From positions 1 to 64,000 of the forward strand of contig LVAA01000014.1 in NCBI GenBank assembly GCA_001603955.1: a stretch of DNA of 64,000 bases. Direction: 5' to 3'. Both the position numbers and the translations under genes were made by a program. The notes below the pieces were generated by a model, which was given only the letters and a program-made list of their open reading frames with translations, was not told where the DNA came from and did no database searches. Shown here in pieces: positions 562-4,455 of this stretch. Source of the DNA: Syntrophobacterales bacterium Delta_02 (GTDB lineage Bacteria > Desulfobacterota > Syntrophorhabdia > Syntrophorhabdales > Syntrophorhabdaceae). Numbering within the stretch: the first letter of the stretch is position 1; every line of letters starts with the position of its first letter.

Positions 562-722
562 AAGGGCACCTCCTAAGTTTAGTCTTTGAAGCCATTAAAA
601 GCCCCAGGTGCGACTCGGCCTTAGGAGCCGTCCAGTCCTTGCGGGTTCTGGAACACCTGGGGTAAATTACCCAAGAAAAAATCCCCTGAGGGTGGGGACG
701 ACCCCTAAGTTTAGTCACCTCC
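562..722 (-). promoter_or_regulatory. Structured 5' leader, candidate RNA switch
   Basis: Read on the minus strand, the leader contains in order: a 13-base repeat (704-716), a short C4/G4 hairpin followed by six U (about 676-698), an 11-base palindrome (661-671), then a three-way-junction-like fold. That fold is closed by a perfect 9-bp stem (602-610 with 654-662) and has inner hairpins at 631-635/648-652 and 616-619/627-630. The second copy of the 13-base repeat (572-584) includes part of the Shine-Dalgarno. The loop at 620-627 is complementary over 8 bases to the Shine-Dalgarno region (570-577) and, with one G-U pair, to the first repeat copy. No known riboswitch consensus was recognised. 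Confidence 0.55.
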
Positions 723-751
723 ATTTTCGCTCTAGCGAAGGCCCTTGTCAA
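723..751 (-). promoter_or_regulatory. Promoter for the structured leader
   Basis: On the minus strand TTGACA (751-746) is followed after 17 bases by GAAAAT (728-723). The -35 is a perfect sigma-70 match; the -10 is weak. Predicted transcription would start near 716, at the beginning of the first 13-base repeat. Confidence 0.5.
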
Positions 752-3397: not shown

Positions 3398-3586
3398 TTA
3401 CAATCTTCGCTTTCTGGATTCGATGAATCTGCTAAGTTCATCCATCGAGATACGCCACTGTGAATCGATCTTGATTGCGTCCAGACCATCGTACCTGATA
3501 CCGCGCAAGCATAGATCCCTGACCTTCTTTTCCTTTAAGGCAAGAATCTTGGCAGCTTCTTTCGTTGTAATAAACTGGTCTGCCAT
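3398..3586 (-). CDS. Excisionase-type HTH protein
   Basis: 62 residues with the MerR-like HTH_17 fold of excisionases: a TTKEAAKILALKEKKVRDLC recognition region at residues 7-26 and an RISMDELSRFI wing at the end. Such proteins bind attachment or promoter DNA and steer recombination. It lies 199 bp downstream of the serine recombinase on the same strand, which supports a role as recombination directionality factor or local regulator. Confidence 0.75.
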   Translation of the reverse strand: MADQFITTKEAAKILALKEKKVRDLCLRGIRYDGLDAIKIDSQWRISMDELSRFIESRKRRL

Positions 3587-3589
3587 TAC

Positions 3590-3784
3590 TCAGTTACCCC
3601 CTTTTAAGGTTTTCTCTTTGTTGCCCTGGTTTCTAAGGTATCGCCTTGTACGGGTTCTCTCTTCTTCGGCCATGTCTCCGTCAACCTGAATGAGTTCCTT
3701 CATCGCCGGCTCTTGTGAAATATCCTTGCCCTTCTTTCTGTCAATCACCGGTCGGTGTTTGACAAGATGTTCAATTTTGCCCAT
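3590..3784 (-). CDS. Small basic hypothetical protein coupled to the recombinase
   Basis: 64 residues, highly charged. The ATG at 3784 overlaps the recombinase stop codon (TAATG), with an AAGGCGG ribosome site inside the recombinase end, so the two are translationally coupled. A longer upstream start exists but lies within the recombinase gene. The excisionase-like gene follows 3 bases after its stop. Function unknown; an accessory recombination role is possible from context only. Confidence 0.6.
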   Translation of the reverse strand: MGKIEHLVKHRPVIDRKKGKDISQEPAMKELIQVDGDMAEEERTRTRRYLRNQGNKEKTLKGGN

Positions 3785-4455
3785 TATGCCGCCTTCCTGA
3801 GAATGTTTGAAATGGTCTGAGGGTGCCACGTTTTACCCACGGGCTTGTAACCTTCCTTGTCCAGTTCCCGGCAAATAGCCCGGTACGAATATCCCTTGTC
3901 GTTGAGGTCTTTGATTAAAGATACTGCCTTCTGTTCCCGTTCATTAGGCAGGAGGCTCTTTCCATCATCGGCTAGCTCCCATCCGTAGGGTATCTGCCCG
4001 GCACGTTCGCCTTTATCAATCTTGTGATGCAGGGCATCCCTCGTCCTTTCACTGATCGTGTCTCGCTCCCATTGGTTCATGCTTGCCATGATATTCAGAA
4101 AGAATTTACCCATGGCGCTCTTTGTGTCGATCCTCTCGGTGATGGAATGAAAGGCTATAGATTTCTTCTCTACGAGGTCCATAAGGGTCAACGTGTCCTT
4201 CACCCTTCTTGAGAGCCTATCAAGCTTGTAGACGACAACAGCGTCAATCTGGTGGCTCTTTATCCTGTCCAAGAGGGATCGAATACCCTCCCTGTTCAGG
4301 TCTTTGCCAGACTTGCCGGCGTCCTCGATGATACCGATAAGCTCCAGATCATGCAGGGAACAGTATGACTCAATTTTCGCCCTCTGATTGTCCAAGCTGA
4401 TTCCTTCTCTTGCTTGCTCATCCGTTGATACCCTTACATAACCTATCGCTTTCAT
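3784..4455 (-). CDS. Serine recombinase (resolvase/invertase family)
   Basis: 223 residues. The N-terminal catalytic domain has the family signature YVRVSTDEQ with the nucleophile Ser10, the KLDRLSRR stretch near residue 77-84 that carries the catalytic arginines, and a long E helix after it. A short Recombinase-type (PF07508) DNA-binding region fills residues 150-223 (PYGWELADDG, YSYRAICRELDKEG). It lacks the long C-terminal coiled-coil region of large phage integrases, so it is an intermediate-length element recombinase. A long inverted repeat lies just upstream and probably includes its binding site. The coding order recombinase, small protein, HTH suggests an excision/integration module. 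Confidence 0.9.
   Translation of the reverse strand: MKAIGYVRVSTDEQAREGISLDNQRAKIESYCSLHDLELIGIIEDAGKSGKDLNREGIRSLLDRIKSHQIDAVVVYKLDRLSRRVKDTLTLMDLVEKKSIAFHSITERIDTKSAMGKFFLNIMASMNQWERDTISERTRDALHHKIDKGERAGQIPYGWELADDGKSLLPNEREQKAVSLIKDLNDKGYSYRAICRELDKEGYKPVGKTWHPQTISNILRKAA

Follow-up and report, generated by a model that had tools for sequence, protein, structure and literature searches.

A probable divergent c4-type antisense RNA leader before a 69-residue gene of Syntrophobacterales bacterium Delta_02

What is the role of an mRNA leader that carries, at its very beginning, a second copy of the segment covering its own ribosome-binding site? This question is raised by the window (the whole stretch of 64,000 nucleotides that was analysed), where a predicted 155-base leader on the minus strand precedes a gene of 69 residues. 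The leader had been regarded in a preliminary description as an undescribed RNA switch of no known class. All the minus-strand elements and positions given there were found again, but the claim of novelty does not hold, since the leader is laid out like the c4 leader of P1/P7 and the Rfam c4-2 model matches it below its cut-off. The locus is most probably (at about 0.83) a divergent c4-type antisense RNA leader, belonging to an immunity operon of a phage or prophage, with the organization of P1/P7 immI. The class is thus already known; what is new is the size of a branch missed by current models, together with the constancy of its a1/b1 site.

The leader, read along the minus strand, follows a sigma-70-like promoter, TTGACA-17-GAAAAT (751-723, 10 of 12 consensus matches), from which a transcript start near 716 is predicted; TTGACA is found at a nearly equal distance in most relatives. 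The 5' end of the predicted transcript is formed by the first target copy, a1/b1 (716-702, GACTAAACTTAGGGG), composed of a1, GACU (716-713), and b1, CUUAGGGG (709-702). A terminator-like C4/G4 hairpin followed by U6 comes next (feature at 699-675, hairpin and U run at 699-681). It lies between the two copies, as previously described, and is the sole terminator-like site of the region; its position is the same in most relatives and also in phage P1. The c4-type three-way junction (662-602) is supported by the c4-2 match, a shared fold and covariation. Its closing stem P1 (662-653/611-602), already recognized as that of a closed junction, is accompanied by stem P2 (652-648/635-631), with its cap CC-GCAA-GG, and by stem P3 (630-627/619-616). 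The P3 loop, CUCCUAAG (627-620), which can pair with b1 and b2, corresponds to the b' antisense segment, and the junction strand AGUC (615-612) to the a' segment. A short U run, CUUUU (601-597), lies 3' of stem P1 and may make the c4-type unit a weak terminator; a U run of 4-7 occupies the same place in most relatives. The second target copy, a2/b2 (584-570, GACTAAACTTAGGAG), overlaps the Shine-Dalgarno AGGAGG (574-569). The gene itself (561-352), placed like icd in P1, has no family match. Only 351 bases of the contig remain beyond it, which leaves any following ant gene out of view. A small hairpin, GUGCC-CUUAU-GGCAC (569-555), lies over the start codon and is kept in a relative of the same family (G023), although the two proteins are unrelated beyond their first three residues (MAQ). 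Elsewhere in the window, positions 3398-4455 hold an HTH_17 gene of excisionase type and a serine recombinase of only 223 aa, with the resolvase domain and a portion of the recombinase domain; the pair suggests a prophage or mobile element at the contig end.

The two copies share the 13-mer GACTAAACTTAGG, at 716-704 (the transcript start) and 584-572 (over the Shine-Dalgarno). These are its only two sites in the 4.0-Mb genome, even when one mismatch is allowed, and an exact 13-base repeat was seen in none of 2000 dinucleotide shuffles of the 155-base leader. The single loop at 627-620 does have two competing partners, with 8 of 8 bases paired to b2 (CUUAGGAG, 577-570) and 8 pairs, one of them G-U, to b1 (709-702). 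A further partner had been overlooked: both repeats begin with GACU, to which the junction strand AGUC is complementary, and the whole 13-mer is therefore a merged a/b target. Judged by energy alone, the loop is set apart from shuffles in its pairing with the first copy (1/300 and 1/200) and less so in that with the second (73/300 and 8/200). The strong support for these pairings comes from the relatives.

The class assignment rests first on a permissive Rfam search, in which the window core matched c4-2 (RF02944) over the full model length with 31.4 bits and an E-value of 5.4e-5, short of the 41-bit cut-off of this family. No match was obtained up to E 10 with C4 antisense RNA (RF01695, cut-off 45 bits) or with IsrK (RF01394), and the c4-a1b1 model (RF03163) was not matched either. 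A member of the same genus (G010) does pass the c4-2 cut-off, at 41.3 bits, ahead of a gene of roughly 70 residues. Several features that characterize C4 are present in the window, namely the three-way junction with a tetraloop arm, a b' hairpin loop and an a' junction strand, an a2/b2 target that covers the ribosome site of the following gene within the same predicted transcript, and another target, a1/b1, located 5' of the RNA. C4 is further characterized by its control of an antirepressor gene and by RNase P processing to about 77 nt. An antirepressor gene follows the c4-type RNA in three relatives (G023, L157 and L158). The window contig stops before that point, and no Bro-N antirepressor gene was found in the whole source assembly.

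The P1 record shows the order a1, b1, C4 RNA, a2, b2, icd and ant, with a terminator-like hairpin and U run between b1 and c4. In P1, where the C4 RNA silences the antirepressor gene, the b' segment forms the loop of P3, and a' (CUGUCAA) is a junction strand complementary to both a1 and a2. The window shares with P1/P7 the succession of promoter, a1/b1, terminator-like hairpin, three-way junction, a2/b2 over the Shine-Dalgarno and small gene, as well as the capped P2, the b' segment in the P3 loop and the a' segment in the junction. It differs in its a' of just 4 nt, in its a and b targets merged into a 15-nt stretch, in its a1/b1 placed right at the transcript start and in the U run that follows the junction, the P1 c4 stem being devoid of one. 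C4 antisense RNAs have been listed from Proteobacteria and phages (Weinberg et al. 2010, PMC2864571). The C4 RNA is processed from a longer transcript and can act in trans; its b' segment partly covers ribosome sites, and a' confers specificity (PMC5320573). Another relevant system is isrK-orf45-anrP of Gifsy-1, where a read-through mRNA bears a small ORF and then the antirepressor, and its ribosome site is made accessible by a short terminator-ended RNA, IsrK, with competing structures that hide or free this site (PMC4825925). The window looks similar in its predicted short terminator-ended RNA, its small ORF on a predicted read-through mRNA and its competing structures, but it differs from IsrK in sequence, no antirepressor is visible in it, and its mechanism is putative.

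More informative insights were obtained from the relatives. The closest one, G023, has a leader 69% identical to that of the window (E 2.6e-10), located directly before a Bro-N antirepressor gene (Pfam 3e-6, PHROG 6.5e-10) that is unrelated to the 69-residue gene. The core fold is alike in both. The loop changes from CUCCUAAG in the window to CUCCUUGAA in G023 while the repeats change from CUUAGGAG and CUUAGGGG to UUCAAGGAG and UUCAAGGGG, and the G023 loop pairs with UUCAAGGAG. Loop and both repeats have thus changed together, in a three-way covariation. Such compensatory changes, which had been proposed as a check, are seen in other relatives too. Over seven sequences, 92% of the cells in stems P1-P3 are paired and 13 pairs show two-sided changes, a result equalled by none of 500 shuffles.

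A first covariance model was built from the window and G023, leaving out P3, which was misaligned by pairwise MAFFT. Its matches in the phylum were G159, G152 and G236, for which Rfam gave no match at E 0.05. A second model, built from the seven sequences, matched 27 of 395 phylum genomes at E ≤ 0.01; in the same genomes, 6 are matched by Rfam C4 and 5 by c4-2. The P1/P7 antisense immunity device extends thus far past its described members. Only 2 of 20 newly found loci are above the c4-2 cut-off, most relatives being unmatched by this family, and the second model itself does not match P1 c4. Most members have TTGACA about 84-111 bases 5' of the core and U runs on both sides of it, the first immediately preceding the core. 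Low-scoring hits with neither promoter nor target were set aside as doubtful (e.g., L034, L038-L042, L162, L166, L168, L169). Searches at the DNA level were less productive: junction patterns gave only chance coding matches in viral contigs, and the leader gave a single chance match among phage records and nothing among plasmid records. No relative of the 69-residue gene was detected in viral contigs, phages or 99 related genomes. Several c4-type RNAs are directly followed by a small gene of 65-89 residues (L153, L164, L149, L026 and the window at 352-561); these genes stand in the place of P1 icd and are too diverged to be called related; the 69-residue protein gave no BLASTP match to such genes, with weak alignment only.

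The specificity of the antisense-target pairing was analysed across species. Among seven species including P1, the mean energy of a1/b1 with its own P3-junction segment is -22.5 kcal/mol, versus -10.4 with those of the others, and the true assignment ranks first among 5040 permutations. For 18 held-out members, absent from model building and chosen after the hits had been seen, the own pairing was reached by 0 of 20,000 permutations upstream and 7 of 20,000 downstream. The upstream value is also 0 of 20,000 for all 30 members with enough upstream sequence. A good partner is missing in some single members. Downstream, the signal comes from a subset of members, including two new ones (L157 and L158) with strong downstream pairing, which, like G023, precede antirepressors. 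Several relatives carry a1/b1 but lack a clear a2/b2 close to the gene that follows, so that cis repression is not universal in the branch. The a1/b1 site is the most constant partner throughout. This site is annotated as putative in P1, and it gains a testable account from this constancy. As a separate observation, the c4-type RNA and a1/b1 are found with no a2/b2 near the next gene at L036, L035 and L037 (in G152, G159 and G236), the next gene in G152 resembling a phage replication initiation protein.

How could such a leader work? In the mechanism proposed here, promoter use, processing, action in trans, repression and an antirepressor as final target are all putative. Through b' and a', the c4-type RNA (662-602) would bind a2/b2 (584-570) and mask the Shine-Dalgarno ahead of the 69-residue gene, which would stop translation of this gene and probably of an antirepressor further down. 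The a1/b1 site (716-702), being the same target, would take up a' and b' and free the Shine-Dalgarno, whether in cis or on a separate short RNA. In line with this, the part of the leader upstream of the core increases the computed accessibility of the Shine-Dalgarno, clearly in G023 and modestly in the window. The terminator between the two copies could indeed release a short 5' RNA with a1/b1 alone, like IsrK of Gifsy-1. The earlier reading as a control switch stands as far as a structured RNA with competing partners, a Shine-Dalgarno overlap and a terminator is concerned; nothing in the locus indicates a ligand-sensing riboswitch.

A purely cis-acting switch, with one molecule alternating between a1/b1-loop (on) and loop-Shine-Dalgarno (off) pairings and no separate antisense RNA, is a rather unlikely variant, although both pairings exist and are mutually exclusive. 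The computed folds alternate with leader length, and a1/b1 alters the accessibility of the Shine-Dalgarno in silico: deleting the part upstream of the core in G023 lowers it from 0.7-0.95 to 0-0.24 (the last of the six bases excepted), and in the window the effect is weaker but goes for the most part the same way. In Salmonella, such behaviour is shown by structures A and B of isrK-orf45-anrP (PMC4825925). However, the architecture matches the processed, trans-acting RNA of P1/P7. Several relatives also keep the RNA and a1/b1 with no a2/b2 in cis, and a cis Shine-Dalgarno switch is therefore not the common function.

Transcription attenuation appears unlikely, with two terminators (the early C4/G4 hairpin and the U run 3' of the junction) and read-through permitted by the pairing of a1/b1 with the nascent junction. 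In most relatives, even where a2/b2 is lacking, each of the two hairpins does precede a U run. Nevertheless, the first hairpin folds before the loop is made, so that the a1/b1-loop pairing cannot decide the first terminator; moreover, the second U run is short in the window (CUUUU) and missing after the P1 c4 stem. A metabolite riboswitch of a new class, which the compact three-way junction, the GNRA-capped arm and the loop paired to the Shine-Dalgarno might evoke, is highly improbable in view of the c4-2 match, of phage gene contexts with no metabolic gene right after the members examined, and of loop and junction sequences that vary with their target and do not form a conserved pocket. Transposon ends and an IS-type guide RNA were also considered and find no support in the context.

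Beyond the antisense leader favoured for the window, a broader generalization can be put forward tentatively. The branch of c4-type RNAs, mostly missed by Rfam, might be widespread in phages of the phylum, with a1/b1 at the transcript start as its constant partner, and not the target over the next gene. Its members could then be self-contained timers or attenuators of phage early operons, or antisense RNAs acting on distant prophage targets, and the P1-like a2/b2 of the window would be one use among several. Two minor observations concern individual loci. At L167, a low-scoring hit (23.6 bits), AATCAAACGAGGC flanks the core on both sides (at about 1578-1600 and upstream of the core) and matches its own P3 loop. 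At L172, a sub-threshold match to the int-alpA RNA (186-253, 33 of 35.8 bits) lies about 1.3 kb from the c4-type RNA.
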